Assembly (NCBI RefSeq): GCF_021228235.1
Contig: NZ_JAJQRG010000006.1
Location: 124,001-188,000, forward strand
Length of the DNA: 64,000 bases
From: Pseudophaeobacter flagellatus
GTDB lineage: Bacteria; Pseudomonadota; Alphaproteobacteria; Rhodobacterales; Rhodobacteraceae
Reading direction: 5' to 3'
A program made the position numbers and the translations under genes. Position 1 is the stretch's first letter; the number at the start of each line of letters is the position of its first letter. This document shows positions 1,429 through 43,139 of the stretch, in pieces. The notes beneath the pieces were generated by a model. The model saw only the letters and a program-made list of their open reading frames with translations. It was not told the DNA's origin and made no database searches.

Positions 1429-1442
1429 TTGACGGCGGACAA
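1429..1442 (-). promoter_or_regulatory. FNR-like box upstream of phasin-like gene
   Basis: Read leftward the sequence is TTGTC-CGCC-GTCAA, a near-palindrome of the FNR/DNR type. It ends 54 nt before the start codon at 1374. Confidence 0.6.
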
Positions 1443-1498
1443 CGCAATGCCGTCATTCAAGACCACTGAATGAAAAACTCGCTACGGGCGGACGCCCG

Positions 1499-1512
1499 TT
1501 GATTGCAGTCAA
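1499..1512 (+). promoter_or_regulatory. FNR-like box upstream of SPW protein gene
   Basis: The sequence is TTGAT-TGCA-GTCAA. It ends 62 nt before the ATG at 1575. With a class II arrangement (box at -41.5) this leaves a leader of about 25-30 nt. Confidence 0.7.
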
Positions 1513-1574
1513 TGAAGACTCGGCATTTCCAAAGGACAATGCGTGATCATGGCCTTTTACAGGAGGAAGAAATC

Positions 1575-1931
1575 ATGGAACGGATGCATTTTCAGGATGG
1601 TATCACGCTCGTTGCTGGTGTCGTACTTGTTGCGGTCCCCTTCGCTCTCGCCATCACACCGCCGGAGGGTACTGGCCTTACGCTGCTAATTGCAAACTTC
1701 GTGCTATCGGGTGTCGCCGCCATCATTCTCGGTGCGGCTGCTCTCTTCTATTTCCGGAAGTGGGAAGAGTGGCTCGACATCGTGCTTGGGGTCTGGCTTG
1801 TAGCCTCGCCATGGATCGTGGGATTCACCTATTCGCAGATGGCCATGTGGATTGCGATTGCCTGCGGCGTTGTGATCGCTGCCATGGGGATCTGGAGAAC
1901 CGTGGAGGAGAATGGCGAGCATGCCTACTGA
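1575..1931 (+). CDS. SPW repeat membrane protein
   Basis: A 118-residue inner-membrane protein with about four hydrophobic helices. It carries the WLVASPWIVGF signature of SPW-repeat proteins plus an equivalent N-terminal half (WLDIVLGV region), as expected of a two-repeat protein. Its biochemical role is unknown. The ATG at 1575 is chosen because AGGAGGAAGAAATC precedes it with good spacing; upstream in-frame codons lie in the promoter. It stands alone behind an FNR-like box at 1499-1512 and is divergent from the phasin-like gene, which has its own box, so both are probably switched together. Confidence 0.75.
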   Translation: MERMHFQDGITLVAGVVLVAVPFALAITPPEGTGLTLLIANFVLSGVAAIILGAAALFYFRKWEEWLDIVLGVWLVASPWIVGFTYSQMAMWIAIACGVVIAAMGIWRTVEENGEHAY

Positions 1932-2013
1932 CACCGTATTTGACATTTCCTTGCTCGATGGTCGGCTCTCCCGAGCGCTCAGTTGGGTTCGAGAGATTGT
2001 GGCCTAGGCACCG

Positions 2014-2037
2014 TATCACGGGAACCACGGTGTGATA
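2014..2037. repeat. Inverted repeat TATCAC-N12-GTGATA
   Basis: A 6-bp dyad with a 12-nt spacer lies between the SPW gene and the USP remnant, nested in a CACCG...CGGTG dyad. It could be an operator or a leftover of the decayed gene; nothing distinguishes these. Confidence 0.3.
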
Positions 2038-2190
2038 GTCCGCAGTCGCTTCCCGACTGCGATGGCAATGGGCCACCGGGGACTCGGCCCTGTGCGGGAA
2101 GTGCTGCTTGGTAGCGTATCACAAAAGCGACTGCACCACGCCAACTGCAAGGTGGTCATCGTTCCCTGCAACAAGCACTGGAGGCAACAA
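2032..2190 (+). pseudogene. Universal stress protein, C-terminal remnant
   Basis: In frame from the GTG at 2032 the translation contains GHRGLGPVREVLLGS followed by VSQKRLHHANCKVVIVP. This is the G-2x-G-9x-G(S) ATP-binding motif and last strand of UspA-fold proteins, complete to the usual C-terminal VVIVP. About 100 N-terminal residues expected of a single USP domain are missing: upstream the frame is closed and no matching fragment is visible in 1932-2031. The frame runs on past the domain end into the following phosphoribosyltransferase gene, so no native stop remains. I read it as a decayed usp gene. A functional mini-protein is conceivable but lacks a convincing ribosome site. Confidence 0.75.
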
Positions 2191-2195
2191 TCCGC

Positions 2196-4682
<2,487 letters not shown>

Positions 4683-4683
<1 letters not shown>

Positions 4684-4976
4684 TGTATGCTCAGGAACAA
4701 GAGAAGGCAGACGCCATCGCACGCAAGGCCGCACGCAAGCAGCACGCCGAGGAAAGCGGCAAGCGCCACACCATCTGGTTCGGGCTGGGTATGTTCGGGC
4801 TGATCGGCTGGGCTGTAGCGGTGCCGACGCTCCTGGGTGTCGCCGTAGGGGTATGGCTGGATCGCATAGCGCCAGGAGAGTTTTCCTGGACGCTCGCGCT
4901 CCTGCTGGGCGGCGTCGCACTGGGGTGCATCAACGCCTGGTGGTGGGTAAGCAAGGAGAGCGAACACGATGACTGA
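4683..4976 (+). CDS. atpQ: N-ATPase accessory membrane protein AtpQ
   Basis: A 97-residue protein with a charged N-terminus (EQEKADAIARKAARKQHAEE) and two predicted membrane helices (IWFGLGMFGLIGWAVAVPTL and LALLLGGVALGCINAWWWV). The topology resembles AtpZ/AtpI assembly factors, and position between epsilon and AtpR identifies it as AtpQ of N-ATPase operons. The ATG shares one base with the atpC stop. A role in c-ring assembly or ion access is inferred from family context. Confidence 0.85.
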
Positions 4977-5283
4977 CGAATTGACCCTTGGTGCAAGTCT
5001 GTCGCTGTCGCTGTTGTTGGGCGCAGGTTTCGGGGCGCTGTATTTCAGGCTGTTGTGGCGCGCCGCGCAGGGTCTGACCGGGATGCGTGGCCCGCCCTGC
5101 AACAGGCAACAGATCGGCGCAGGGCGACTGGTCCTCGGCTTTGCCATGCGCATGACCCTCACGCTGGTGGCTCTGGCATTGGCGCTGGCAGCCGGCGCGG
5201 AGGCCGCACACCTGCTGGCGGGCGTTCTTGGCTTCGGGCTTGTTCGTCACATCACGGCCGGACGGAAAAGGCGAAGGGGCTAA
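4969..5283 (+). CDS. atpR: N-ATPase accessory membrane protein AtpR
   Basis: A 104-residue hydrophobic protein with about three membrane helices (LGASLSLSLLLGAGFGALYF; LVLGFAMRMTLTLVALALAL; AHLLAGVLGFGLVRHI). It overlaps atpQ by eight bases and precedes subunit a by three. AtpR is a hallmark of N-ATPase operons and is not found in housekeeping F-ATPase clusters. Family work has proposed that its conserved intramembrane Arg interacts with the c-subunit carboxylate; one candidate Arg here lies in the FAMRMTLTL helix. Confidence 0.85.
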   Translation: MTDELTLGASLSLSLLLGAGFGALYFRLLWRAAQGLTGMRGPPCNRQQIGAGRLVLGFAMRMTLTLVALALALAAGAEAAHLLAGVLGFGLVRHITAGRKRRRG

Positions 5284-5286
5284 GCC

Positions 5287-5979
5287 ATGGGACTGACCCC
5301 CGACACATGGATAGTCGTGACGCTTGGCCCAGTGCCGATCAATGCGACGCTCTTTTTTACCTGGATCGTAATGGCGCTGCTCGTGCTTTCCGCCCTGGTG
5401 GTGCGCCTGCGCCTTTCGCAGACCGGCGATCTCACAGTTGCCCAAAACTTCTGGGAGACGCTTGTCGAGACCATGCGCACGCAGATCCGCGAGGTCAGCG
5501 GTCAGGAGGCAGGCCCCTATTTGCCCTTCGTAGGCACGCTTTTCGTATTCATTGCGGTGTCGAACATCCTGGCGGTGGTGCCCGGTTTCCAACCACCCAC
5601 CGGCTCGCTCTCGACCACCACGGCGCTGGCGCTCTGCGTGCTGTTCGCGGTGCCGCTCTTTGGGTTGGCGCGCAGGGGCGTTGGCACATATCTGCGCTCG
5701 TACCTTCAGCCGACACCGCTGATGGCGCCTTTCAACATTATTGGCGAAATATCACGCACGCTGGCGCTGGCGATCCGGCTATACGGAAACGTCATGAGCG
5801 GCAGCGTGATCGCCGGGATTCTGATCTCGATTGCCCCTTTCTTCTTTCCGATCCTGATGCAGCTCCTGGGACTGCTGACGGGGGTGATCCAGGCCTATAT
5901 CTTCGCCATCCTCGCAATGGTCTATATCGCATCTGCAACGCATGAACACCGCAACGCCGATGCCGCGAAAGGAGACTGA
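5287..5979 (+). CDS. atpB: N-ATPase Fo subunit a
   Basis: The 230-residue stator channel subunit. It is polytopic, with helix 4 carrying the essential Arg in LALAIRLYGNVMSGS (Arg about residue 164) and a final helix IQAYIFAILAMVYIASA that ends in the usual subunit-a pattern. Together with the c-ring it forms the ion path. It is shorter than typical proteobacterial subunit a, as expected for the N-type. It begins at ATG 5287, three bases after atpR, and is followed immediately by atpE. Confidence 0.93.
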   Translation: MGLTPDTWIVVTLGPVPINATLFFTWIVMALLVLSALVVRLRLSQTGDLTVAQNFWETLVETMRTQIREVSGQEAGPYLPFVGTLFVFIAVSNILAVVPGFQPPTGSLSTTTALALCVLFAVPLFGLARRGVGTYLRSYLQPTPLMAPFNIIGEISRTLALAIRLYGNVMSGSVIAGILISIAPFFFPILMQLLGLLTGVIQAYIFAILAMVYIASATHEHRNADAAKGD

Positions 5980-5980
5980 C

Positions 5981-6268
5981 ATGGCAGACGCGACCCTGAT
6001 CGCACTAATATCCATCCTCACCGCCGGGCTGACCATCGCCATCGGTTCGATTGGACCGGCAATTGGCGAAGCACGGGCCGCCGCTCAGGCCCTGGCCTCG
6101 ATCGCCCAACAACCGGACGAGGCCAATACGATCACCAGAACCTTGTTCGTCAGCCTCGCGATGATCGAATCCACCGCGATCTACTGTTTCGTCGTTGCGA
6201 TGATCCTGATTTTCGCCAATCCGTTCTGGGATGCCGCGATGCAGGCAGGGACCGCAGCAGGAGGCTAG
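5981..6268 (+). CDS. atpE: N-ATPase Fo subunit c (rotor ring)
   Basis: A 95-residue hairpin of two membrane helices. Helix 1 has GSIGPAIGEARAAAQAL with Glu30; helix 2 has AMIESTAIYCFVVAMIL with Glu63, Ser64, Thr65 and Tyr68. Against the Ilyobacter-type Na+ site (Gln32, Glu65, Ser66, Thr67, Tyr70) every helix 2 position is kept and Gln is replaced by Glu. A second carboxylate on helix 1 is a feature recalled for N-ATPase rings. Ion choice (Na+ or H+) cannot be decided from sequence. The start at 5981 is preceded by AAAGGAG; an in-frame upstream ATG lies inside atpB. Confidence 0.93.
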   Translation: MADATLIALISILTAGLTIAIGSIGPAIGEARAAAQALASIAQQPDEANTITRTLFVSLAMIESTAIYCFVVAMILIFANPFWDAAMQAGTAAGG

Positions 6269-6271
6269 GTG

Positions 6272-7048
6272 ATGCAAATCGACTGGATCACCGTCGCCGC
6301 CCAGATCGCGAACTTTCTGGTGCTGGTTTGGCTGCTTCAGCGGTTGCTCTATCGGCCAGTCGTTCGCGCCATGCGGAACCGGGAGGCGGCGATCCGCAGC
6401 CGGTTCGCCGAGGCCGAGAAGCGCGAAGCCAAGGCCGCCGGAGAAGTCGAGACGCTGAAACAGCAACAGTTGGAGTTCCAACAGCGGCGCGCGGCGCTGC
6501 TGGCACAGGCTCAACAAGAGGCGCAGGACCTGGAACACAGGCTGGAAGCGGAAGCGCGCGAGCGCGTTGCTGCGCAGCGCGCCGCCTGGGAGAGCCAGAT
6601 TGACCGAGAGACGGCAGCGTTCCTTGTTGATCTTCGGCGCGAGGCAGCTGGGCATGTTGGGCGGGTGGCACGCCGGGTCCTGAACGATCTTGCCGGCGCG
6701 CGTCTGGAAGAGGCGATGGCCGACACTTTCATTGCCCAGCTGAACGGGCTGACTGGCAAGAGCCTCGCCAGTCTGCGCGCCGAGACCACCTCTGGCGGCC
6801 GGATCACCGTGGCCAGCGCCTTCGATCTGCCTGATCCCCTGCGCAACCGTTTGCGCAAAGCGGTGCGTGCGGTGGTGTACGAAAATGCGCAGCCAGATTT
6901 CGTGCGAGACCCGCAGATCGGCTGCGGGATCCGGCTGAAGGTGCGCGGCCAGACCCTGCAGTGGAACGTGAGTGCCTATCTCGACGATCTGGAAAAAGAA
7001 ATCGGCGTGATGATTGGGCGCGAAGACAGGCAGGAGGCTGCAGAATAG
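6272..7048 (+). CDS. atpF: N-ATPase stator subunit b with delta-like C-terminal domain
   Basis: A 258-residue protein. An N-terminal membrane anchor ([20 protein letters not shown]) is followed by a long Arg/Glu/Gln-rich coiled coil (about residues 30-150). Ordinary b subunits end near residue 160. Here a further ~100 residues carry [37 protein letters not shown] and [11 protein letters not shown], which resembles the C-terminal domain of F1 delta/OSCP (iD-x-x-LiGGi-x-l pattern). A b-delta fusion would explain why the operon has no atpH. A GTG at 6269 is an alternative start; ATG 6272 follows AGCAGGAGGC. Confidence 0.88.
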
Positions 7049-7050
7049 CC

Positions 7051-8619
7051 ATGGGAGTGTTAGACGGCATCGCGAAGGATCTACTGGCCACGCTCGACAG
7101 CGGGCTCGACGCCCACAATGCGCGCCTGCGACATGAACAGATCGGCACGGTTGTCCGGGTGGGCGCAGCGGTTGCGGATGTCGAAGGCTTCACTGAACTG
7201 GGCGCAGACGAGCTGATTACCTTTCCTGGCGGGCTCATGGGTGCAGCCCTGGATATTGACGAAAAACGCGTCGGGGTGACCCTGCTCACCCCGGCCGCGG
7301 CGCTCGCCGTCGGGAGCGAGGCACGGCGTACCGGCCGCGCCATCGACGTTCCGGTGGGTCAGGCGCTTCTGGGGCGGGTGGTCGACGGGCTTGGCCACCC
7401 CATCGACGAAGCCGGCCCACTGCGTGCGGCAGAGCGTTGGCCGGTCGAACGCCCTGCCCCGGCGATCCTTGATCGTGCCCCGGTTGAAGTACCGCTGCAA
7501 ACCGGGGTCAAGGCCGTGGACGCCGCGATCCCCATTGGGCGCGGCCAGCGCGAATTGATCATCGGCGACCGTCAGACCGGCAAGACCGCCATCGCCGTCA
7601 GCGCCATGCTCAACCACCAGGCAGGGCGGCCCGGCGGTCAGGGACCGGCTGCCAAACCGGGGATCTGCGTTTATTGCGCCGTGGGGCAGCGCGCCTCGGC
7701 GGTTGCGCGGGTTATCGACACGCTTCGCCGCGGGGGCGCGCTGGACCGCACCGTGGTCGTCGTGGCGGGCAGCGAGGACACGCCGGGACTGCAGTTCATG
7801 GCCCCATATGCCGCCACTTCGATAGCCGAGTTCTTCATGGCCTGCGGCGAGGATGTCCTTGTTGTCTATGATGATCTCACCCGCCATGCCCGCGCCTATC
7901 GCGAACTGTCGCTGCTTTTGCGCCGACCGCCAGGACGCGAGGCCTATCCCGGCGATATCTTCTACATCCATTCGCGGCTTCTCGAGCGTGCGACCCATCT
8001 GCGCCCGGACCGGGGCGGTGGATCGCTGACCGCCCTGCCGATTGTCGAAACCCAGGCGCAGAACATCGCTGCCTATATCCCAACCAACCTGATCTCGATC
8101 ACCGACGGTCAGATATACCTGTCCCCGGTTTTGTTCGAAAAAGGCCTGCTGCCGGCGGTCGACCTTGGGCGGTCGGTCAGCCGGGTGGGAGCCAAAGCAC
8201 AGCTGCCCGCCTATCGCAGCGTTGCGGGCGACCTGTTTCTGTCCTTTGCCCAGTTCGAGGAACTGGAGGTGTTTTCGCGCTTCGGGACGCGACTGGACCA
8301 AGATACGCAGCTGAAACTCACGCGCGGCCGCCGTGTGCGCGCGGCGCTGCAACAACGCGAGCAGGCGCGGCCAGCGCCCCCTGAACAGATCGCAGTGCTC
8401 TTGGCCGCAACCCATGGCTTGATGGACACACTGCCGCTAGATCGCGTGGCCGATGCCGAGCGGGCCATATCCCGGGCGATCCGGGAGACGGCGGCCCCGC
8501 TCTGCCGCCGGATCGAGAATGGTGAGCCTTTTGCCGAAGACGATCGCACGGCCCTCATCTCGACCATCCGGCAGGCCCTTGCGCCATTGGCACAGGAGAG
8601 CGGCAATGGAGACGCTTGA
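7051..8619 (+). CDS. atpA: N-ATPase F1 subunit alpha
   Basis: The 522-residue non-catalytic alpha subunit. The nucleotide-binding P-loop [11 protein letters not shown] is at about residues 172-182, followed by the alpha signature [20 protein letters not shown] and [20 protein letters not shown]. The N-terminus ([19 protein letters not shown]) lacks the long delta-binding helix of ordinary alpha subunits but keeps an amphipathic start. ATG 7051 lies just after the atpF stop and is preceded by AGGAGGCTGCAGAATAGCC. The C-terminus overlaps atpG by 14 bases. Confidence 0.95.
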
Positions 8620-9496
8620 ACACCTTCAGCGCCGGATTGCCACGATGCGCGACCTGCAATCCATCGTGAGGACGATGAAGACACTGTCTTCGATCACGAT
8701 CCGGCGCTGCGAGCGCGCGGCCCAAGCAGTGCGTGCCTATGACGAAACCGTCGACTATGGCCTGCAGATCGTTCTACGCGACAAGGACGTCGCCGATGCC
8801 GCCATTGCCGCCTCCAAGGCAGAGCGGAAGACCGGGCCTGTGGGTCTGATCGTGTCGGGATCGGACCACGGGTTCTGCGGTCGATTCAACGAAGTTGTCC
8901 TAAACGCTGCCTTGGAAAACATCCTGTCTGGCCGGGCAGAAAATGTCGCTCTGGCCGCGATCGGCACCCGCGCCGCCGAATTGCTGACAGGCGCCGGCCA
9001 TACACCGGACGTAGTTCATGCCACGCCAGGTTCGGTCGAGGGGCTACGCGCGTCAACACGCAACCTGCTGGCCCTGGCCGATCACTGGCGTACGCAGCGA
9101 GGCATCGCCAGGCTGCGCATTGTCCACGCCGTCCAAACACCAGAGACCCCTGCCCGCCCGGTGACCATGTCGCTGTTACCGGTCTCGCCTGCCTATCTTT
9201 TCCATCAGGCCAATCGGACATGGCCATCGCGGCGCCTGCCCACCTATACCGAGGAGCGCAATATCGTTTTGACCAGTCTGATCCGCGAACATGTCTTTGT
9301 CCGTATCTTTCGTGCTCTGGCTGAAGCGCAGGCCTCCGAACACGCCTCGCGGCTGGCGGCCACGCAATCCGCCGAAAAGGGCATACGCGACCGGCTGGCA
9401 GAAATGAACGGTGCATTCCGGCTCCGGCGGCAAGAGCAGATTACCAGCGAAATGCTGGACGTGCTCGCAGGTGCAACCGCGCTGAACCGGCGTTAG
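8606..9496 (+). CDS. atpG: N-ATPase F1 subunit gamma
   Basis: The 296-residue central-stalk subunit. The N-terminal helix [20 protein letters not shown] continues into [20 protein letters not shown], the middle has [16 protein letters not shown] (the conserved GLCG-like segment), and the C-terminal helix reads [21 protein letters not shown]. It closes the atpDCQRBEFAG operon. The start lies inside atpA, 14 bases before that gene's stop. No terminator is evident in the following 106 bases. Confidence 0.92.
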
Positions 9497-9602
9497 AGAG
9501 CGCAGCGATGGTCGCGCCTGGAAGGTTAGCACGGGTGCCGCGTTGGGATGGAGCTGGTCACACGGTTTCGAAGTGCCAACCAAGAGATGCCCTGGGCGGC
9601 CG

Positions 9603-9616
9603 TTGTCCGGCGTCAA
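9603..9616 (+). promoter_or_regulatory. FNR-like box upstream of cytochrome c gene
   Basis: TTGTC-CGGC-GTCAA, ending 66 nt before the ATG at 9683. It resembles the box before the phasin-like gene, so the cytochrome probably has its own promoter. Confidence 0.6.
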
Positions 9617-9682
9617 TGCCGCCGCAAGGCAAGTCAGAGATGCTGGAGGCGCAACCCTGTTGGAAAAAAAGGAGAGCGCAAT

Positions 9683-10150
9683 ATGACACGCACAGCCGCA
9701 GTCCTGGCCATTTTGATCTTGGGGTCTGGAGCGCCATTGAAAGCACAGGGGCCGATAGAACGACCCCTGCCCTGGAAACCCGTGATCATCGAACCGACGG
9801 AACGGGAGTTCTTGAATTCCTGTGCGTCATGCCACGGCATGGACGGAACGGGCGCAGGCTTTCTGACTCGCCTGTTCCGCGGTGTCGACCCCGGCGACTT
9901 GACGCAGCTTTCGGTTCGCAATGATGGCACATTCCCGATTGAACGCGTCTTTTCGGTCATCGATGGCCGGGCCGAAGTAGCCGCGCATGGCGATCGCAAG
10001 ATGCCGGTCTGGGGTGACCGTTACATGAACGCCGCCATGTCTGAATACGGACCGGATGAAATCAACGAAACCCGCGTGCGCAACCGCATCTATGAACTGG
10101 TCCACTATCTGCAATCAATACAGGCCGTCGACGCAGAGCCAGAGAACTGA
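9683..10150 (+). CDS. Exported monohaem cytochrome c
   Basis: A 155-residue precursor. A Sec signal peptide (MTRTAAVLAILILGSGAPLKAQ) is followed by one CASCH haem site at about residue 51 (LNSCASCHGMDGTGAGF), and a candidate axial Met lies in DRKMPVWGDRYM. It should be a periplasmic class I electron carrier. The start has AAAAAAGGAGAG upstream. It sits 187 nt after the N-ATPase operon behind an FNR-like box, so it is probably made at low oxygen, perhaps feeding a terminal oxidase or reductase. The partner cannot be told from the sequence. Confidence 0.88.
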   Translation: MTRTAAVLAILILGSGAPLKAQGPIERPLPWKPVIIEPTEREFLNSCASCHGMDGTGAGFLTRLFRGVDPGDLTQLSVRNDGTFPIERVFSVIDGRAEVAAHGDRKMPVWGDRYMNAAMSEYGPDEINETRVRNRIYELVHYLQSIQAVDAEPEN

Positions 10151-10209: not shown

Positions 10210-11796
10210 TCACTCTGTCCCCATGCCCACAAGAACCCGTGCGGCGCGTATCAGTACCATCGGGTCGCGTTCTGTGCGTGCGACAGGCGGCGGCGGATCG
10301 GCCTTACCGGTCAGGCTGGCCACGGCGGTGAGCGCAGATCGCACGGAGTACTCCACGGTAAAGACGCAATCGCGGGGCAGCTCGACATATTGCCCAATCA
10401 CTGCGAAGTTCCGGGCGCCCTGAGGGCGCACATCGGGGCGGTCGCCAAGGATGCGCGGCATGAACTGGCTGGTGATAAAGGGCATCCGGCAGGGTACGCA
10501 GCGGGCGTCTTTGAACCATTCTTTCTGTGCCGCCGTAAGGTTCAGATGCCCACAGAGTTCTTTGATAATCTCGTTGCCCGTGGCCTCCCACATCGGCTTG
10601 GACACGAAATCGCCCTCGCGGTCGCCACGCAGCCCATAGCCCCAGAAGACATAGCTGCCATGTTTTTGCCCGCGAAAATGCGGTTGATGCATGAGCACGA
10701 TAGAAAGCGTCCAGCCCGACGCAGCAAAGGTGAGCAGCCCGCCCGTACCCGTGCGGTTGTTGGTGAAATCCTCCATGAATTCAAAGAAGTCAGGGCTGTC
10801 CATCGTGACGGTGAAGGAATGCCAGGCGGTCTCGCTGGTGTCGCCGCAGAACGCTTCGGGGTTACCGAACCCTTCATGCTCTGCCGCAAGGCTGCGCCAG
10901 AGCGCCCATGCACCGCCCTCGTGATCCTCGAGACCGGGGGCCTCGGTGTTCGAGCCCAGAACCGAACCCTCGGTCATGGACCCCAGGGTGAGATAAACCC
11001 AGTCTGCCTCGCTGATCGGCACCCTCTCGTCACCAGCGAGGATCAGGGCGACGACGCAGCGATCCTGCCGGGTGCCCTCAATCCTTACGTTGGTGACCTG
11101 CGCGTCGGTCGCGATGTGAACGCCCCTGTCCTGAAGCCAGGTCACGATCGGCCCAATGAGCGAGTCATACTGATTGTAGCGCGTCCGCAAGATCCCGGCG
11201 ATCCGGGTGAACCCGGGAAACAGGTGGATGAAACGTCGCAGATAGCGCCGCATCTCGATGAGAGAATGCCAGGGTTGGAACGAGAACATTGTGGACCACA
11301 TCAGCCAGAAATTGCTGTCGAAGAATTCTGGCCGGAACCAGTCATTGATCTTCCGCGCGCCCAATGTGCGTTCCGAATGCAGAACCAGCCGGTTGATATC
11401 GACGATGTCGTGGGCGCTAAGCGTGAGATCGTAGCGATCCTCGGCGGGCTTTCCGTCACGCACGAGGCGACAATCGGACGAACCGGGCACCATCCTGTTG
11501 AAGGCCCGGATATCCTCACTAACCGTCAAGCCCGGATCGTCGGCAGAGGGAATCGTATCAAGCAGGTCGAAGGTGCAGGCGAAGTGTTTCTCGAACATCC
11601 GGCCGCCACGGACCACGTAACCGAGTTCGGCTGTACCCGCGCCGTCCAGCGACCCGCCGACGACATCGCATTGTTCGTAGATCTGGATACTCTGGCCCTT
11701 GACCCCGGCATCGCGGATCAGGAAGACCGCCGTGGCAAGACCGGCGATGCCGCCGCCGACGATATGGTGCTGCCCTTGGGCGTCGTCGGTCGGCAT
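10210..11796 (-). CDS. Oleate hydratase-family FAD protein
   Basis: A 528-residue member of the oleate hydratase (myosin-cross-reactive antigen) family, which adds water to cis double bonds of free fatty acids using bound FAD. Seen: the dinucleotide motif IVGGGIAGLATAVFL at residues 12-26, YEQCDVVGGSLDGAG, and family blocks near FVSKPMWEATGNEI and GNPEAFCGDTSETAWHSF. The usual RGGREM loop that supplies the catalytic Glu reads RGGRMFEKHF (residues 63-72), so Met67 stands where Glu is expected. ATG 11796 is used because GAGGAG lies 7-12 nt upstream. An FNR-like box (11857-11870) lies 60 nt upstream. Confidence 0.9.
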   Translation of the reverse strand: MPTDDAQGQHHIVGGGIAGLATAVFLIRDAGVKGQSIQIYEQCDVVGGSLDGAGTAELGYVVRGGRMFEKHFACTFDLLDTIPSADDPGLTVSEDIRAFNRMVPGSSDCRLVRDGKPAEDRYDLTLSAHDIVDINRLVLHSERTLGARKINDWFRPEFFDSNFWLMWSTMFSFQPWHSLIEMRRYLRRFIHLFPGFTRIAGILRTRYNQYDSLIGPIVTWLQDRGVHIATDAQVTNVRIEGTRQDRCVVALILAGDERVPISEADWVYLTLGSMTEGSVLGSNTEAPGLEDHEGGAWALWRSLAAEHEGFGNPEAFCGDTSETAWHSFTVTMDSPDFFEFMEDFTNNRTGTGGLLTFAASGWTLSIVLMHQPHFRGQKHGSYVFWGYGLRGDREGDFVSKPMWEATGNEIIKELCGHLNLTAAQKEWFKDARCVPCRMPFITSQFMPRILGDRPDVRPQGARNFAVIGQYVELPRDCVFTVEYSVRSALTAVASLTGKADPPPPVARTERDPMVLIRAARVLVGMGTE

Positions 11797-11856
11797 GGCG
11801 CGAGGCTCCTCTTCAGTCTGGTTCCGCTCATCTTGGACGATGTAAGGCAGGGTGCG

Positions 11857-11870
11857 TTGACCAGGATCAA
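11857..11870 (-). promoter_or_regulatory. FNR-like box upstream of oleate hydratase gene
   Basis: TTGAC-CAGG-ATCAA (leftward TTGAT-CCTG-GTCAA), both half-sites intact, 60 nt before the start at 11796. Confidence 0.75.
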
Positions 11871-11959
11871 TGGCGAGAGCCTTTGGTGTCGGCATTCGAT
11901 ATATGCCGCATCGCCTGTAGCGGGGAAACGTCGGAGACTGCGGCCCAGGGAAGGCCGGG

Positions 11960-12295
11960 TTATCCGCCTGGCCCGCCAAAGAGCGACACCCGCATCAGCT
12001 TTGCAACGTCGTGAAGGCTGTCGGAGCGATCCGATCGCTGGCCGCCATCTGACAGGCGTTTGATCCTGCGCGGAGAGACTCCGAAGTACCTAGCGATCTC
12101 GTCGTCGTTCAACCCTAGGTCGTGAAAGGTCTCAACCGTCCGTTCGGGATGCGGGCCGAGCAGATCGTCGACATCGTTTCGGCAATTCTGGTATTCGCTA
12201 TGCCGCATTGGGAAAAGAATCCAAGGTTTACTCTCGGGCGCGAGGACCGATGGGTCATTCGCTTTGATTGTCGCATCGTCATTGAATCTCATCAT
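11960..12295 (-). CDS. Small conserved-looking protein with helix-turn-helix-like segment
   Basis: A 111-residue protein I do not recognise. The N-terminal half includes WILFPMRHSEYQNCRNDVDD. The C-terminal half has HDLGLNDDEIARYFGVSPRR and then IKRL, spaced like a small helix-turn-helix (helix DDEIARYFGV, turn, helix SPRRIKRL), so DNA binding is possible but unproven. The start is one of two adjacent ATGs (12295 or 12292) behind GGAGGGGGC. It has its own FNR-like box at 12357-12370, which argues that it is a real gene of the same programme. It lies between the hydratase and ftsH genes, all leftward. Confidence 0.65.
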   Translation of the reverse strand: MMRFNDDATIKANDPSVLAPESKPWILFPMRHSEYQNCRNDVDDLLGPHPERTVETFHDLGLNDDEIARYFGVSPRRIKRLSDGGQRSDRSDSLHDVAKLMRVSLFGGPGG

Positions 12296-12599
12296 CGCGT
12301 AGCCCCCTCCAAAAGCAGCAACCCGGTGGAGTATGGAGATTCGCAGATTCGCCACATTGTCAGCCGTCAACGGGGATGGATTCCCGCGCCGTTGAACCAT
12401 GTTGCATTGGCCAAATTCCGCGTATCTACGCGCGTCAGCTGCCCGGAGACAATCCCAGTCAATCCGATAAGCCGGGCTTTGGCGTCAATAGCGGGCTTTT
12501 TCAGGATTTGATGGCGCCGTGCGTCCTCCCATCAAGGCGGAGGTGGCCGATTAGGGGACGGAATATCCGACCGGTTCGGATGGTGCCATTGTGTCCTGT
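12296..12599. other. Intergenic region carrying one FNR-like box
   Basis: The stretch between the ftsH stop and the small HTH-like gene. Apart from the box at 12357-12370 I see no gene, RNA or clear terminator. Confidence 0.5.
12357..12370 (-). promoter_or_regulatory. FNR-like box upstream of the small HTH-like gene
   Basis: TTGTC-AGCC-GTCAA (leftward TTGAC-GGCT-GACAA), 61 nt before the start at 12295. Confidence 0.65.
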
Positions 12600-15118: not shown

Positions 15119-15541
15119 CTATTCCCAAAGTTCCTGAACAGGTTTACGCATGGCGTGCTTGACCTGCTCGAATTCGCCCCAGGATACATGTCGGCGCAAA
15201 AGGTCGATGACCGCCACCACGGCCCGGTCCGGTTCATCCAGAGGCTCTTTCTGAAACCGCGATGCAACCCGCTCGATCAGGTCACTCTTATTGCGTGGCT
15301 TCGCCGGGGTTTTCGAAGGGTTCCAGCCTTCAAAATACACCCCGCGCACCAGCACCGGAAGCTGCGCTGCCAGATCTGCGGCTTCATCAACCGTCAGAAA
15401 ATCACGAATGGCGTGCAACGTCTCGTGCAGAAGCATGTATGCCCGTGGCTTTGAAAACCCGAGATCATCGCAGAGTTCATTCAGCCATTCGGCAAAAACC
15501 TGCGGGGCATGATCGAGCGTGGCGATACCGGTTGTGGTCAT
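15119..15541 (-). CDS. DUF2267-like protein
   Basis: A 140-residue cytosolic helical protein. Features seen: FAEWLNELCDDLGFSKPRAY, LLHETLHAIRDFLTVDEAAD, LAAQLPVLVRGVYFEGWNPS and the C-terminal LLRRHVSWGEFEQVKHAMRK. The ordered pattern (one ~60-residue helical unit with LPVLVRG-x-YF-x-GW, then a second) fits DUF2267. Function is unknown; such genes often accompany usp and hsp20 genes. The ATG at 15541 is preceded by GGCAGG, and an FNR-like box lies 61 nt upstream (15603-15616). It is divergent from the CBS gene. Confidence 0.8.
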   Translation of the reverse strand: MTTTGIATLDHAPQVFAEWLNELCDDLGFSKPRAYMLLHETLHAIRDFLTVDEAADLAAQLPVLVRGVYFEGWNPSKTPAKPRNKSDLIERVASRFQKEPLDEPDRAVVAVIDLLRRHVSWGEFEQVKHAMRKPVQELWE

Positions 15542-15602
15542 GAAGCACCTGCCGCTTGAATATGGTTGAACTGCATGATGGGCGGTAATCTCGTGCAGTG
15601 CA

Positions 15603-15616
15603 TTGATGGCCGTCAA
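15603..15616 (-). promoter_or_regulatory. FNR-like box upstream of DUF2267 gene
   Basis: TTGAT-GGCC-GTCAA (leftward TTGAC-GGCC-ATCAA), 61 nt before the start at 15541. Confidence 0.75.
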
Positions 15617-15782
15617 TGCCGCGACGTTCCCAGCCCGCGATGAAGTGGCATGCTTTTCTTTGCGCTCAACAGATCCGATAGGCTGGGCCGACAGGTTGCC
15701 CGGATCGGAGGATTCGAAATCGCCCGGAACGAAGGCATGAATTCGACGGTGGAGAAGCGCCCGGAGTGCTGCCAAAGTGCGT

Positions 15783-15991
15783 ACCATCGCGGCGCATGAT
15801 CTGCTCACGAATGCGGCGATCTCGGCCTTCTCTCAGACCACTCTGGTCGACACCATCACCCTGACCGACAGCATTGCTGCTGTTGCGGCACCCAGTGGCA
15901 ACCTAGCCGACCGTATGCGCATCCTGACATGTGCCCCCTGATTGCCGATGCAATCAAGCGATTGCATCATCCGCTTGACGGCAGTCAATGA
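15783..15991 (+). pseudogene. PRPP synthetase-like C-terminal remnant with frameshift
   Basis: One frame reads TIAAHDLLTNAAISAF then TTLVDTITLTDSIAAV and RMRILTCAP, stopping at TGA 15939-15941. From base 15938, in another frame, PLIADAIKRLHHPLDGSQ follows and stops at 15989-15991. Joined, these match the end of ribose-phosphate pyrophosphokinase: (A)THGL, then the (V)TDT loop, then I-L-s-v-APLiAeAI-r-iH. A single-base loss in the C run at 15934-15938 explains the break. Upstream bases (about 15750-15782, RSARSAAKV) may extend it, but most of the gene including the ATP site is gone. Its last codons contain the FNR-like box of the CBS gene. Confidence 0.65.
15975..15988 (+). promoter_or_regulatory. 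FNR-like box upstream of CBS-domain gene
   Basis: TTGAC-GGCA-GTCAA, 62 nt before the ATG at 16051. It lies inside the last codons of the PRPP synthetase remnant. Confidence 0.75.
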
Positions 15992-17922: not shown

Positions 17923-18055
17923 ATCTCCAGTGCCCCCCGATTGCCTGGCCAAGTTAGCGAGTCGCGCCACCTTCGCCTTGATCACCAGTATCTGATCAGT
18001 ACCACACTTTCACCCCTACGGCCACGAGCGGCAAACCGCTGAACCGGGGTCGGCA

Positions 18056-18069
18056 TTGATAGGTATCAA
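18056..18069 (+). promoter_or_regulatory. Consensus FNR box between divergent regulator transcripts
   Basis: TTGAT-AGGT-ATCAA, a full match to the FNR consensus and the best site in the window. It ends 63 nt before the ATG at 18133. It could also affect the leftward CRP-type gene (71 nt from its GTG at 17985). Confidence 0.85.
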
Positions 18070-18132
18070 TGACCTTCCGGTGTAGATCGGCTTCCATACT
18101 AAGAGCGCAACTTGTGCACAGTGGAGGATGTG

Positions 18133-18585: not shown

Positions 18586-18587
18586 AC

Positions 18588-21198: not shown

Positions 21199-21206
21199 GC
21201 GGGCAT

Positions 21207-29627: not shown

Positions 29628-30613
29628 CTCGGTGTTTTTCCGCCCGCGCGATGAGTGCTCATCTCCGCGTTCCGGATTAACAGAACTGGTGTCACGGCAC
29701 GGGAGAGAAGATACTCTGCGGTGCTCCCGATGGGCAGATCCGGATCGTTTCCCAGCCCGCGGGCCGAAAGGACCACAAGTTCGCCCCGTTCTTCGCAAAT
29801 CGCCTTCATCAGAGCCCTGCGTGGCTCATCGCCGCTGAGCCGACGGACGCGGTTGCCGTGTCTGTGGACAGGGAGCAATCGACGCAAACGCTGAAGCCGA
29901 TCTTCGACCGTGCGTGCCGCCTCCTCCTTGAGTTCACGCCAGAGCGCCTCATCTCCCTGTCCCGTCCGTCCAGTGCCGAACGAGCCGGCATGCGAAACAG
30001 CGTGAAGGATGACAAGTTCTGCCGCGCGGATCCGCGCAATCGCGGCGGCGAAGCGAAGCGCGGCTTCTGATAGCGGCGAACCGTCCATTGGAACTATGAT
30101 ACGACGGGTCCTGGGAGGCTCACCTGCAATTTCGTCCGGAACGAGCAGAACCGATCCGTGAAAGACCTCTGCAAGATGCCTGGCCGTCCCTCCGAGGCCC
30201 CATCGGCTTGGGGGTCCGAAGGTCCCGGTGCCCAAGACCAGAAGATCCGCCTCGCAGCGCAGCGCCTCTTCGTGGATGCACCGCCCGGCTGAACCGCACA
30301 CCACGATCGCACGTATGTCGGTGGTTGCCCCGGCGGTGTCGGACATCCGTATTAGATCGGCTGTCTCATCGCGTCTGGTCAATTCCCAATCGACGGGATC
30401 GGCGCAGCGAACCGTGGGCGGCCCGGCGGGCACGACTCGCATGGCCGTCAGGTCAGCCCCCGTTTGGTTCGCCAGCAATACGGCTTGTTCCAGTATGCGC
30501 GCGGCATCAGGGGACCGGTCGAGACAAACCAACACATGGCGCAAAAGGCGATCATCGCTCTCCTGCCCATGTGGTCGGTCCACGATGGCCGGCCCGGAAT
30601 GAATATCAGGCAT
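29597..30613 (-). CDS. Tandem universal stress protein
   Basis: A 338-residue cytosolic protein with two USP domains. Domain 1 (about 25-165) starts HVLVCLDRSPDAARILEQAV and has LVLGTGTFGPPSRWGLGGTA, a weakened nucleotide motif. Domain 2 (about 170-315) starts RIIVPMDGSPLSEAALRFAA and ends SARGLGNDPDLPIGSTAEYL, an intact G-2x-G-9x-G(S/T) ATP-binding loop, then AVTPVLLIRN. A basic tail follows. The start at 30613 has GGGAGG upstream. Two FNR-like boxes lie upstream (30693-30706 and 30762-30775), and the gene overlaps ndvB downstream. Tandem USPs under FNR/DNR control are known in anaerobic energy-stress survival. Confidence 0.88.
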   Translation of the reverse strand: MPDIHSGPAIVDRPHGQESDDRLLRHVLVCLDRSPDAARILEQAVLLANQTGADLTAMRVVPAGPPTVRCADPVDWELTRRDETADLIRMSDTAGATTDIRAIVVCGSAGRCIHEEALRCEADLLVLGTGTFGPPSRWGLGGTARHLAEVFHGSVLLVPDEIAGEPPRTRRIIVPMDGSPLSEAALRFAAAIARIRAAELVILHAVSHAGSFGTGRTGQGDEALWRELKEEAARTVEDRLQRLRRLLPVHRHGNRVRRLSGDEPRRALMKAICEERGELVVLSARGLGNDPDLPIGSTAEYLLSRAVTPVLLIRNAEMSTHRAGGKTPRWPAALRQEP

Positions 30614-30692
30614 GGCAACCTCCCGTCCAAATGGCGCTTCGTTGTTGCGTAAAGCTTGGGTCTACATGCTACCCACACAGGCCTGGGGTTCA

Positions 30693-30706
30693 TTGACGGG
30701 ACGCAA
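30693..30706 (-). promoter_or_regulatory. FNR-like box, proximal, upstream of usp-ndvB
   Basis: TTGAC-GGGA-CGCAA (leftward TTGCG-TCCC-GTCAA), 79 nt before the start at 30613. Confidence 0.5.
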
Positions 30707-30761
30707 TGCGCTCGCCCTGTGCCTGACACCGCCACAACGCGGCCAAAGAGGTCTGATGTCA

Positions 30762-30775
30762 TTGATAGCTGGCAA
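30762..30775 (-). promoter_or_regulatory. FNR-like box, distal, upstream of usp-ndvB
   Basis: TTGAT-AGCT-GGCAA (leftward TTGCC-AGCT-ATCAA), centred 69 bp from the proximal box. Confidence 0.45.
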
Positions 30776-31120
30776 CGAAGCGGTTTTGGCTGTGTTTAGA
30801 AAAGCAGTGATAGTAAGTGCAGACCTTGCTGTAGTGTTTCGCCCGAACGCATTCGCGGGCCGGAATGCGGGCCGTCTGTGGTCGTGAGAACGAATGCAGA
30901 CGGCTCTACACCAAGTTCCCGACCAGCCTCGCTGCTCGGCTGTCAAGAACACGCCGTCCCTGAGACCTAGCGCATCACCTCAGGCCTGATCACGGGGCCG
31001 GGCCGGGACGACCGCAGCGCAAAAGCGCCGGGGCCGAGGCCTTGATCAGCGCGACGAACTCGCAAATCAGCGAGCTCAAATCAGGCAAATAGCCGCGCCA
31101 TCCAGTTTGAAATGGAGCGG
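30776..31120. other. Intergenic stretch with nothing recognisable
   Basis: About 345 bases between the distal usp box and the BON-protein stop. Both strands have only short frames without family resemblance or ribosome sites. It may be decayed sequence, but I cannot name a source. Confidence 0.4.
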
Positions 31121-31768
31121 TCACTGCACCGCCAGATGATCGATGACGTTCGTCACCCCGGGGGCCGCCCAGGCCGCGCGCTCCGCGCTCCTGCGTTCGC
31201 CCAGATAGCGGACTTCGCCCTCAAGCGTTACGGTCCCGTCATGAACCACCACCCGGATTCCCGAGGCATCAAGTTCCGCATCGCGCACGAGGGTCTTCTT
31301 GATCCGCTCCGATACGTCCGAAACCTTTACCGACGGTCGGACCCTGAGATGGTTGTTGATGCCGGTTACACCCGTCATCCGACCGATCACCCGTTCTGCG
31401 GCATCACCCTGATATCGCCATTCCACATCACCCTCGAGGGTGACCCGGCCCTTGGCGACGGTGACATGGATCTTGTCTTCCGGTACCGATGTGTTCCACT
31501 TCAGCGAATTGGCGACGCGTTTCGCGATCTCATCGTCAGCTGTGATGTGGGCACCAATTGGCCGGACCTCGATTTCGTCGGCGATCGCACGGACGCCCAC
31601 GACGGTTTCAACGATGCCCAGCGTCGTGATCTTGTCGCTGTAGCTGCGGACATGCCCTGTCAGCGTTACGACAGCCTGATCGACCGCCACGCCAATGTCG
31701 GCAGCATCAATGCTTGGCTCGAAATCAAGTTCATCAATGATGTCCAGTCGTAGTTGCTTGTCAGTCAT
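31121..31768 (-). CDS. Triple BON-domain protein
   Basis: A 215-residue protein with three BON (OsmY/nodulation) domains and no signal peptide. Repeats: DIGVAVDQAVVTLTGHVRSY then VVGVRAIADEIEVRP; KIHVTVAKGRVTLEGDVEWR then MTGVTGINNHLRVRP; GIRVVVHDGTVTLEGEVRYL then APGVTNVIDHLAV. BON domains bind phospholipid or assist envelope stability; the lack of an export signal suggests a cytoplasmic or membrane-face role. The start at 31768 is chosen for GGAGGAAGAG immediately upstream. An FNR-like box (31828-31841) lies 59 nt upstream. It is the last intact gene of the island. Confidence 0.85.
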   Translation of the reverse strand: MTDKQLRLDIIDELDFEPSIDAADIGVAVDQAVVTLTGHVRSYSDKITTLGIVETVVGVRAIADEIEVRPIGAHITADDEIAKRVANSLKWNTSVPEDKIHVTVAKGRVTLEGDVEWRYQGDAAERVIGRMTGVTGINNHLRVRPSVKVSDVSERIKKTLVRDAELDASGIRVVVHDGTVTLEGEVRYLGERRSAERAAWAAPGVTNVIDHLAVQ

Positions 31769-31827
31769 CTCTTCCTCCACTTTGCAAACCACATCAAGGA
31801 CGATATCTTTGCGGATTTCTATTGACA

Positions 31828-31841
31828 TTGATGGCTCGCAA
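31828..31841 (-). promoter_or_regulatory. FNR-like box upstream of BON-protein gene
   Basis: TTGAT-GGCT-CGCAA (leftward TTGCG-AGCC-ATCAA), 59 nt before the start at 31768. Confidence 0.55.
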
Positions 31842-31940
31842 CGACGGATCCGAAAGGCGCTGGACAAGGATCTGACGGGAGGGGGGAAACCTGGGGATTG
31901 GTTGCTATGATGTAGCGGTTGTTCAAATAGGACGACCACC

Positions 31941-40636: not shown

Positions 40637-40832
40637 CCCTACGCCTCCCTGGGTTCCGCTTTGATCAGGGCACCCATTACCCCCATAGCGTACATATATA
40701 GTCTATAAAGTGATCAATTATAACCTGAACGTTCTGAATGTATCTATCCCCTATCACTGCGGCCGGGCCAAAGGCCCTAGGTCGCATTGCTCATAGTCAC
40801 CGCGCATGCGCGGCCTCAGATAGGAATATCTC

Positions 40833-41456
40833 ATGTCTACAACACTCCGCATTCACAGCTTTCCGCTCTCTGGTCACGGCCACCGGGTTGAGCTCTTCGC
40901 CAGGCTGGCAGGCATCCCGCATGAGGTGGTGCATGTTGATCTGGCCAAGGGTGCCCAAAAGACCGACAGCTTTCTGGCATTGAACCCCGCCGGCCAGGTG
41001 CCGGTGGTCGAAGATGGTGCGGTGGTGATCAGCGATTCCAATGCCATTTTGGTCTATCTCGCCCGTAAATATGCCCCCAGCTATCTGCCCAGTGATCCCG
41101 TCAAAGAAGCCCAAGTGCAAAAGTTCCTCAGCCTGGCAGCAGGAGAGCTGGCCTTTGGCCCTGCGGCGGCGCGGCTGATAAATGTGTTTAACGCACCGCT
41201 GGATGCCGAGTTCTGCAAATCCGTCGCCACGCGCCTGCTGGCCAAGCTGGAACCCCATCTGGAGGGGCGCGATACCCTGGTTGACGACGGCGTCACCATC
41301 GCAGATGTGGCGCTCTATTCCTATCTGGCCCATGCGCCCGAAGGCGATATCTCGCTAGAACCCTTCCCGAATGTGCGCCGCTTCCTGGCCAAAATCGAAG
41401 GCCTGCCGGGTTTCAAGCCGATGCCCGCCACCCCGGTCGGCCTGTCTGCCGCCTGA
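40833..41456 (+). CDS. Glutathione S-transferase
   Basis: A 207-residue cytosolic protein with an N-terminal thioredoxin-like domain (LRIHSFPLSGHGHRVELFAR; LNPAGQVPVVEDGAVVISDS with the conserved cis-Pro and the glutathione-binding Asp-Ser) and an all-helical C-terminal domain (VDDGVTIADVALYSYLAHA). It probably conjugates or reduces small electrophiles. It is divergent from the LysR gene and followed by the PNPOx-like flavoprotein in the same direction. Confidence 0.9.
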   Translation: MSTTLRIHSFPLSGHGHRVELFARLAGIPHEVVHVDLAKGAQKTDSFLALNPAGQVPVVEDGAVVISDSNAILVYLARKYAPSYLPSDPVKEAQVQKFLSLAAGELAFGPAAARLINVFNAPLDAEFCKSVATRLLAKLEPHLEGRDTLVDDGVTIADVALYSYLAHAPEGDISLEPFPNVRRFLAKIEGLPGFKPMPATPVGLSAA

Positions 41457-41574
41457 TCGCCGCCTATCTGGCACCAGGTGGAAATCGCAGCATCCAAAAT
41501 GTCCCGGTCGCATCGCTGGCCGGGGCTGGAAACCTACGCGCCCCCTACCCTGCCCCCCCCCCATGAGGCCCGAG

Positions 41575-42555
41575 ATGCCCAAGACCATCCCCCCAACTGC
41601 AGCGCCCGTCACTGCAGTGCAGCCAGATCCCGGCCCCTCCCCCTTTCACGCGGGGGAGCAGGCGCTGCAGCGCGCAAATGGCAGCCGCGACAGGATAGAG
41701 ATGTTTGGTCGCCGGGCGATACGCCCATATCTGCCAGACCAGCACCGCGCCTTTTTTGCCCAGCTCCCCTTTGTGGCAGTGGCGGCAGTTGACGGGGATG
41801 GCCGCCCCTGGGCCAGCCTGTTTCCCGGCCCGCCCGGCTTTGTTCACACGCCTGATGAATACCACCTGGATCTTGCCTTGCATGGTGCTGCAGCCGACCC
41901 GGTGCGCCAGGCCCTGCAACCGGGTGCAGCGATTGGCCTGCTCGGGATCGAGATGCACAGCCGCCGCCGCAATCGGCTGAACGGGCGGATTAAATCGCTG
42001 GATATCAATCACATACGACTGCGGGTTGATCAGAGCTTTGGCAATTGCCCTAAATACATCAAGCGCCGCCAGCTGACCCCGTCGCGCCCCGCAACAGACA
42101 GTAGCCCCGCCAGGGTCTCTGCCCGATTTACCCAGTTGACCGGGGCGGTCCGTGACCAGATCGTGGCGGCTGAGGTGTTCTTTGTCGCCAGCGCCATCAA
42201 GGCGCAGGACAACCCCGTAATTCAGGGGGTTGATGTCTCTCATAGGGGAGGGCCTGTCGGATTTGTCAGGATCGACGGCAATAGCCTGATCATCCCCGAC
42301 TATCGCGGCAACAACCACTTTAACACCTTGGGAAACTTTCTTCTGAACCCCAGGGCTGGGCTGGTCTTTCCCGATTTTGACAGCGGCACACTGCTGCAAC
42401 TTACCGGGCGAACCGCCTTGCTGGCCCAAGATAGCCCCGAACTGCAGGGATTTGACGATGCTGTCGGCGGCTGGCGTTTTTCCCTGGATGAGGGGCTGTG
42501 CCTACAGGATGCCCTGCCCTTTCGCACCGATACCCAAACCCGAACTGACCAGTAG
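41575..42555 (+). CDS. Pyridoxamine-5'-phosphate-oxidase-like (FMN split-barrel) protein
   Basis: About 326 residues. Two split-barrel segments are visible: FFAQLPFVAVAAVDGDGRPW with ASLFPGPPGFVHTPDEYHLD, and the later FVRIDGNSLIIPDYRGNNHF with NTLGNFLLNPRAGLVFPDF, the latter typical of FMN-binding PNPOx-like oxidoreductases. Substrate unknown. The start is uncertain: ATG 41575 (GAGG upstream) or ATG 41563. It follows the GST gene by 118 nt and may share its control. Confidence 0.8.
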   Translation: MPKTIPPTAAPVTAVQPDPGPSPFHAGEQALQRANGSRDRIEMFGRRAIRPYLPDQHRAFFAQLPFVAVAAVDGDGRPWASLFPGPPGFVHTPDEYHLDLALHGAAADPVRQALQPGAAIGLLGIEMHSRRRNRLNGRIKSLDINHIRLRVDQSFGNCPKYIKRRQLTPSRPATDSSPARVSARFTQLTGAVRDQIVAAEVFFVASAIKAQDNPVIQGVDVSHRGGPVGFVRIDGNSLIIPDYRGNNHFNTLGNFLLNPRAGLVFPDFDSGTLLQLTGRTALLAQDSPELQGFDDAVGGWRFSLDEGLCLQDALPFRTDTQTRTDQ

Positions 42556-42596
42556 CCCCCGCGCTCTAGTCCCTGCAACATGGAGGATCCCAACCA

Positions 42597-43064
42597 ATGG
42601 ACACCCGCCCACCACTGCCGCCCTTTACCCAAGACAGCGCCCGCCACAAGGTCCGCCTGGCCGAAGATGGCTGGAACAGCCGCGATGCCGCCAAGGTGGC
42701 GCTTGCCTATACGCCCGACACCAGTTGGCGCAACCGGGCCTGCTTTGTCAGCGGGCGCGCCGAAGCGCAGCGCTTTCTCGCAGCAAAATGGACCAGAGAG
42801 CTGGAGTATCGCCTGATCAAGGAACTCTGGGCCTTCACCGAGAATCGCATTGCGGTGCGCTATGCCTATGAATGGCACGATGACAGCGGCAATTGGTTTC
42901 GCTCTTATGGCAATGAAAACTGGGAATTTACCGCAAATGGCCTGATGCAGAACCGCTTTGCCAGCATCAATGATCTGCCCATCAGCGCGCAGGAACGCAG
43001 GTTTCACTGGCCGCTTGGGCGCCGCCCGGATGATCATCCCGGTCTCTCTGATCTCGGGCTCTGA
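42597..43064 (+). CDS. DUF1348 / NTF2-like protein
   Basis: A 155-residue soluble protein. The pattern [60 protein letters not shown] and [20 protein letters not shown], ending [20 protein letters not shown], matches the DUF1348 family with an NTF2-like cone fold. No activity is known. ATG 42597 follows AACATGGAGGATCCCAACC. Confidence 0.88.
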
Positions 43065-43125
43065 TTTCCGGGCAGATAGCGGCAAAGGCAGGCGCTGAAA
43101 AAAATGTGCATCTACGATGTTATCT

Positions 43126-43139
43126 TTGATCTAGCTCAA
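43126..43139 (+). promoter_or_regulatory. FNR/NnrR-type box of the nos operon
   Basis: TTGAT-CTAG-CTCAA, ending 59 nt before ATG 43199. It has the same spacing as the island boxes, so nos expression and the island may respond to the same regulators. Confidence 0.75.

Follow-up and report, generated by a model that had tools for sequence, protein, structure and literature searches.

An 18-bp FNR-type operator and a Crp/Fnr protein pair define a candidate low-oxygen survival regulon in Pseudophaeobacter flagellatus

A stress-gene island that encodes two Crp/Fnr regulators

We analyzed a stretch of 64,000 nucleotides from Pseudophaeobacter flagellatus (hereafter the window; bases 124001-188000 of the 207,297-base contig C25, in a 4.29-Mb genome of 28 contigs), much of which is occupied by an island of stress-related genes that includes two Crp/Fnr regulators, here called Crp1 and Crp2, and a recurrent FNR-type box. 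The island begins ~11 kb before the window. Genes were called with a codon model, which replaced a hexamer gene finder that missed many real genes, and Pfam scans covered 40 chosen open reading frames (ORFs) of the window. These scans identified the end of a phosphoenolpyruvate (PEP)-utilising enzyme, a phasin, an SPW protein, a phosphoribosyltransferase (PRTase), an F-type ATPase cluster, a weak cytochrome c match, an oleate hydratase family protein, FtsH, DUF2267 and CBS proteins, an S30AE/cold-shock fusion, Crp1, a host attachment/baeRF12 protein, Crp2, Hsp20, a PF20603 hydrolase, a 2,863-aa GH94/glycosyltransferase protein, a universal stress protein and a BON protein. The ATPase cluster is presumably of the N-ATPase type. 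The island also extends to the left of the window, through genes that we take, from their sequence, to encode Hsp20, HemG-like flavodoxin, acetyl-CoA-synthetase-like, pyruvate-dehydrogenase-like, acyl-carrier, alcohol dehydrogenase, PfkB-like and PEP synthase proteins. Beyond the BON gene lie what we assume, from a few domains, to be phenylacetate-type genes and a nos region.

An 18-bp palindrome recurs throughout the island

A preliminary description of this DNA had listed 14 sites of the form TTG(A/T)(C/T)-N4-(A/G)TCAA, or close variants, as a single 14-bp box shared by the stress island and nos. All 14 sequences are present where it placed them; eight fit the strict form (seven on the plus strand and the site at 1429 on the minus strand), six are variants, and a further strict match at 34031 was absent from the list. 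Thirteen of the sites make up one enriched family, with the nos site at 43126 outside it. The length of 14 bp proved too short, since the 13 island sites commonly add C at −2, A at −1 and a central GC. Across the half-sites of these 13 sites, which were selected on TTG..CAA, C occupies −2 in 23 of 26, A occupies −1 in 16 of 26 and the innermost base is G in 20 of 26. The island boxes contain the TTGA-N6-TCAA palindrome of FNR-family operators, and 22 sites, including boxes from outside the window, give an 18-bp palindromic consensus, CATTGAYNGCNRTCAATG (nine of the 22 had been selected with their flanks).

The sites exceed a Markov background. In the first 32.2 kb of the window, exact TTGAN6TCAA occurs five times (mean 0.5 and maximum 2 in 40 first-order Markov resamples) and CATTGAN6TCAATG with at most two mismatches occurs 13 times (mean 1.3, maximum 4 in resamples of the same kind and number). 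With a scoring matrix trained on these 13 boxes, the 46-kb island yields 17 sites of at least 14 bits, 12 of them training sites and five not, against a mean of 0.45 and a maximum of 2 in 20 second-order resamples. The remaining 43.8 kb of the contig piece has a single such site. When each training site is left out in turn, 12 of the 13 score 14.6-26.3 bits and the site at 21183 scores 7.0 bits. Outside the training set, five boxes of 20.7-26.4 bits precede the hemG-like, acs-like, adh-like and PEP synthase genes, and three boxes of 20.8-27.1 bits lie on contig C26.

The genome-wide scan that had been suggested was run in part, as pattern counts with mismatches rather than with the matrix, and the claim of enrichment survives it. 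The two box clusters, in the island and on C26, together span ~54 kb, or 1.3% of the genome. They account for all eight matches to CATTGAYNGCNRTCAATG with at most one mismatch (at C25:113-142 kb and C26:7.7 kb) and for 15 of the 23 with at most two. This figure for confinement is partly circular, because the consensus was built in part from island sites, and relatives are a cleaner test. A reversed-pattern control gave 11 matches at up to three mismatches versus 99 for CATTGAYNGCNRTCAATG. The flank-only pattern CATTGAN6TCAATG with at most one mismatch has 12 of its 16 matches in the box clusters, and three of the other four lie inside genes. The C26 sites form a second small cluster (C26:4424-7721) near the contig start, among genes that, judging by sequence, presumably encode universal stress, PolX-like, Lon and CBS proteins.

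Table 1. Regulators and boxes in the window, with the genes that the boxes precede. Distances run from box centre to start codon.
Feature	Position	Strand	Score (bits)	Distance (bp)	Gene and remarks
Crp1	17149-17985	-			Crp/Fnr regulator without N-terminal FNR cysteines; PESISR recognition helix
Host-attachment/baeRF12 protein	18112-18585	+			Between divergent box and crp2
Crp2	18588-19550	+			Crp/Fnr regulator with four FNR-type cysteines; VETISR recognition helix
Island box	1427-1444		22.6	62	Phasin gene (946-1374, minus); start 1374 hand-set (gene finder: 1236)
Island box	1497-1514		24.2	69	SPW-repeat protein gene (1575-1931, plus)
Island box	9601-9618		20.4	73	Cytochrome c-like gene (9683-10150, plus); codon-model start 9839
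Island box	11855-11872		19.3	67	MCRA/oleate hydratase family gene (10210-11796, minus)
Island box	12355-12372		23.2	69	Small conserved gene (11960-12295, minus); start hand-set, gene uncalled by finder
Island box, perfect 18-mer	15601-15618		27.1	68	DUF2267 gene (15119-15541, minus)
Island box	15973-15990		20.5	69	CBS gene (16051-16470) and S30AE/cold-shock fusion (16525-17076), plus
Island box	18054-18071		24.3	70 (to 18133)	Between crp1 (minus) and host-attachment/baeRF12 gene + crp2 (plus)
Island box	19420-19437				Within 3' coding end of crp2; precedes hsp20 (19525-20052, plus)
Weak island box	21183-21200		11.8 (7.0 when excluded from training)	64	PF20603 hydrolase family gene (20687-21127, minus)
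Island box	30691-30708		19.0	87	Universal stress protein gene (29597-30613, minus); start from ORF list
Second island box	30760-30777		22.6	156	Same universal stress protein gene
Island box	31826-31843		20.0	66	BON-domain gene (31121-31768, minus); start 31768 hand-set
General FNR/DNR-type box	43126-43139		−8.1 (island matrix)		nos region

Boxes stand at a regular distance from their genes and share a −10 element

The distance from box centre to start codon is 62-73 bp at 10 of the 13 window sites and 62-96 bp at 12 of 13, with seven distances taken directly from the matrix scan and six resting on starts set by hand or from the ORF list, where the codon model differs or calls no gene. For the BON gene, the start given by the gene finder (31828) would be overlapped by the box. 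A −10 element was sought in 59 oriented boxes: 17 of our own genome, listed by hand with 30760, 113306, 119191 and 7286 left out, and 42 from relatives that score at least 16 bits and have a start 45-135 bp away. Of the 59, 31 have A at −11 and 32 have T at −7. These counts refer to the offset that a site centred at −41.5 requires, and this offset scored best among those scanned. The 17 own boxes contribute 10 and eight to the two counts; in the relatives' 42, the counts are 21 and 24 when read toward the gene versus 6 and 7 when read away from it. The associated p-values (5.5e-6 and 7.8e-10) are indicative, because the relatives are not mutually independent. An element at the −41.5 offset and not on the other side predicts class II activator geometry for these promoters.

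Several features of individual units can be set beside this pattern. The hsp20 box at 19420-19437 is an overlap of regulatory and coding sequence in the end of crp2, and boxes are similarly placed in several relatives (loci L037, L038, L070 and L079). The small box-preceded gene at 11960-12400 has no Pfam match, and homologs lie in the pair loci L074 and L080. The PRTase gene and the N-ATPase-style F-type ATPase cluster (window 2196-9496) are located in the stress island and lack a box, but the PRTase homolog at the Roseivivax locus L037 is preceded by one.

The box clusters recur where Crp1 and Crp2 are encoded together

A Crp2 match at 1e-22 was found in 14 of 295 genomes of the family. In 13 of these, Crp1 is encoded nearby; G012 has Crp1 and Crp2 on different contigs. 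A class-wide draw of 385 genomes yielded six Crp2 matches besides our own, at 24-29% identity, and Crp2 is therefore treated as nearly restricted to the family within this sample. Loci were read widely for 11 of the 14 Crp2-bearing genomes, our own included. All 10 widely read relatives carry boxes of at least 14 bits at the pair locus, as do a Roseivivax metagenome-assembled genome and Phycocomes zhengii, which hold the only two named Crp1 relatives found in the genome collection (68% and 61%, respectively). The loci read in relatives contain 56 sites of at least 16 bits versus ~0.7 expected, and 52 of the 56 have a start within 400 bp downstream. The short G012 locus has one box of 21.1 bits. 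In Rhodobacter sp. CZR27 (L088), an 860-kb plasmid carries a pair of Crp1/Crp2 type together with genes for Hsp20 and host-attachment proteins.

Crp1 and a main Crp2 clade are distinct from FnrL

The genome contains 16 HTH_Crp_2 matches, six of which yield Crp-like proteins. Three of these six have an E-xx-SR recognition helix, namely FnrL (LETVSR), Crp1 (PESISR) and Crp2 (VETISR); of the other three, two lack the E and one has SK. Fourteen of 17 Crp2-type rows, including the Crp2 of the window, show the cysteine pattern CX2CX7C plus a central cysteine; none of 19 Crp1 rows has CX2CX7C. The Crp2 cysteine columns align with those of our own FnrL in all five rows chosen. In a phylogenetic tree, Crp1 (18 rows, 98/89) and a main Crp2 clade (11 rows, 98/98) are separate from FnrL. 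The remaining Crp2-type rows are a second group of five and that of G199, which stands alone. By eye, Crp1 and Crp2 subclades pair up by genome. Crp1 falls apart from the single S. meliloti FixK-type row in the tree, which was labelled from its pSymA location, a placement that long branches make tentative.

The nos site is a box of another kind

The preliminary description had extended the island box to nos, and this part of its claim does not hold. The site at 43126, TTGATCTAGCTCAA, has T at position 4 and a central TA. A −10-like TAGGGT, counted by eye, stands at the class II offset. A nosR2 promoter of D. shibae has an Fnr/Dnr site at −41.5 (PMC5398030; here and below, published systems are cited from the accessible parts of the sources). 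We take the nos site to be an ordinary denitrification box that gives no evidence for nos in the island programme. Directly before the nosR-like gene lies an ORF of 154 aa (window 43199-43663) with no Pfam match and a CPDCGTCLMC stretch.

A proposed low-oxygen survival regulon

That one FNR-family box joins functionally diverse genes, and that two FNR-family regulators are encoded among them, was already part of the preliminary description and is borne out here. We think it likely, though well short of certain, that the island forms a mostly self-contained regulon for survival at low oxygen, controlled by Crp1 and Crp2 or one of them through class II activation at CATTGAYNGCNRTCAATG. The 18-bp switch is probably read by the two related regulators that the island encodes. 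As the switch is concentrated in the island and the regulators are encoded there, the survival programme may run as a self-contained unit. In the proposed mechanism, CATTGAYNGCNRTCAATG, centred at about −41.5, would be bound by Crp1, Crp2 or both, which would act as class II activators of the island units. Downstream units would be switched on when the presumed oxygen-labile [4Fe-4S] cluster of Crp2 is intact. Box genes would accordingly respond to anoxia, Crp2 would be the oxygen sensor, Crp1 could act with it or against it, and the predicted output is survival under oxygen or energy shortage. The wider generalization, in which a private 18-bp operator and a co-inherited FNR-family pair (one member mostly of the Fe-S type, one without) are insulated from FnrL and able to recruit varied stress, storage and energy genes across Rhodobacteraceae, is tentative and in our judgment very nearly evenly balanced.

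A refinement of this proposal, to which we give slightly less than even credence, is that one regulator activates (most likely Crp2) and the other is an antagonist on the same box or answers another signal such as nitric oxide. Sensor cysteines are found in Crp2 only and E-xx-SR helices in both proteins, and mutual control of Crp1 and Crp2 is possible because a box sits between crp1 and the crp2 unit. A division of labour of this sort is known from D. shibae, where DnrD, DnrE and DnrF repress nap and FnrL induces it (PMC5398030). The three Crp2-type records that lack the cysteine pattern argue against this refinement.

A competing explanation is that the boxes are ordinary FnrL targets whose differences reflect drift or local base composition. 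In its favour, the genome encodes an FnrL-like protein (C23:190206, L021) that shares the E-xx-SR helix. TTGAC forms are among the published FnrL sites, and in D. shibae and Rhodobacter the targets of FnrL include universal stress genes (PMC5398030, PMC2908626, PMC4634722). The sites themselves differ, however. In a core-only comparison of 65 pair-locus sites with 24 FnrL-type sites, chosen regardless of flanks, pair-locus half-sites have A at −1 in 62% (versus 21% in FnrL-type sites), G at position 6 in 66% (versus 10%) and T at position 4 in 27% (versus 75%), although the FnrL-type control is small, author-chosen and includes one site each from a distant pair locus (L055) and a distant Crp1 relative (L056). 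C at −2 was considered as a distinguishing base and rejected (60% in FnrL-type sites versus 65%). The central GC is found in eight of 13 island sites but in one of 26 R. sphaeroides FnrL sites (PMC2908626), and the island set does not show the combination that would mark FnrL boxes (T at position 4, no central GC, no fixed A at −1). Proteins matching a Crp1 bait at 1e-30, presumably mostly FnrL, occur in 136 of the 295 family genomes, mostly at 30-35% identity, yet the box clusters were found at crp1/crp2 loci, and two loci that have a Crp1 relative, and in which no Crp2 was seen, hold one and zero boxes. We consider FnrL control of the set unlikely. The R. sphaeroides site with the island-class central GC, unlike the 25 others in the accessible part of that source, is plasmid-borne (TTGACagctGTCAA; PMC2908626).

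That the boxes are chance sites in a G+C-rich region is scarcely credible. The weak single sites at 21183, 12280 and 17071 could be accidental, but the set-wide tests already count against it: the 17 sites versus 0.45 in resamples, the directional −10 element and the recurrence in relatives.

Besides the circularity of the genome-wide figure and the small FnrL control, several observations weigh against a Crp1/Crp2 regulon. FnrL has the same recognition residues and so could bind the boxes. The N-ATPase block opens with the PRTase start, and the region 20-160 bp ahead of this start contains no box of at least 8 bits (best −5.3); the same holds for ftsH (best 7.5). The Crp2-type rows without the CX2CX7C cysteine pattern are those of G125, G077 and CZR27, and G125 and G077 carry boxes despite lacking it. 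CZR27 has the pair but no box of at least 14 bits in 24.6 kb, and its operator and sensing may have changed. The G263 pair locus (2.5 kb) has no box of at least 10 bits, and the G199 pair locus (3.6 kb) has only an FnrL-like site of 16.4 bits. Genome-wide, the strict consensus has 11 matches in the 13 other pair genomes versus 84 in the 281 genomes without a Crp2 match, one of which (G061) holds three. As this enrichment is only modest, clustering at the locus rather than total count carries the argument. The exact 18-mer without its centre is most frequent in our own genome among the 295 (five matches; others at most two), with matches spread over 59 of the 281 genomes that lack a Crp2 match.

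Comparison with known regulons

The DosR dormancy regulon of Mycobacterium overlaps with the island in function, comprising universal stress, CBS, Hsp20, PfkB, phosphoribosyltransferase and ribosome hibernation genes. It is driven by a response regulator, unlike the island, and the likeness noted here is one of function.

The HcpR motif wyTTGACnnnnGTCAArw shares the TTGAC-N4-GTCAA core but has a pyrimidine rather than A at −1, and its hcp/frdX targets were not seen among the box genes (PMC1274295). The FnrL/FnrN regulon of Rhodobacterales shares TTGA-N6-TCAA, sites near −41.5, a four-cysteine sensor (as in most Crp2 proteins) and universal stress targets (PMC2908626, PMC4634722, PMC4999443, PMC5398030). 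In R. sphaeroides, 19 of 26 FnrL sites have a central CA, TG, CG or TA, whereas the island operator has a central GC and A at −1 (PMC2908626). FnrL targets met in the cited papers belong mainly to respiration, heme and photosynthesis; here the box genes form a stress island.

There is also a likeness in gene content to FixK-type control. Predicted FixK targets include Hsp20, CBS, alcohol dehydrogenase and cytochrome c genes (PMC2908626). The microoxia-induced set of Bradyrhizobium diazoefficiens (FixK2 network, with direct FixK2 targets not distinguished) resembles the island in its universal stress, host-attachment, CBS, DnaJ, PEP synthase, 1-phosphofructokinase family, phasin, Hsp20 and alcohol dehydrogenase genes (PMC6515984). 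FixK lacks an Fe-S cluster (PMC4999443), as Crp1 seems to. Since similar gene sets are under FixK or microoxic control, the island gene programme is of a known kind. Unlike the FixK2 network, the island contains two FNR-family proteins of its own and a box with its own core. A study of 50 genomes reported, in its accessible part, only FnrN among FnrN/FixK-like proteins in Rhodobacterales (PMC4999443), and neither the Crp1/Crp2 pair nor its operator turned up in a literature search conducted largely without subscription papers.

FNR, FixK and DNR sites have been called virtually identical in alphaproteobacteria (PMC2908626), and their regulons are therefore hard to separate. The operator of the pair seems distinguishable, so that its regulon can be read from sequence. 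This suggests likely low-oxygen control for poorly understood genes (DUF2267, host-attachment/baeRF12, BON, SPW and the oleate hydratase family) and offers a system for studying the mutual insulation of related FNR proteins. What is new is the dedicated Crp1/Crp2 pair with a distinguishable operator, and we propose that this regulon is a Rhodobacteraceae counterpart of FixK-type regulons.

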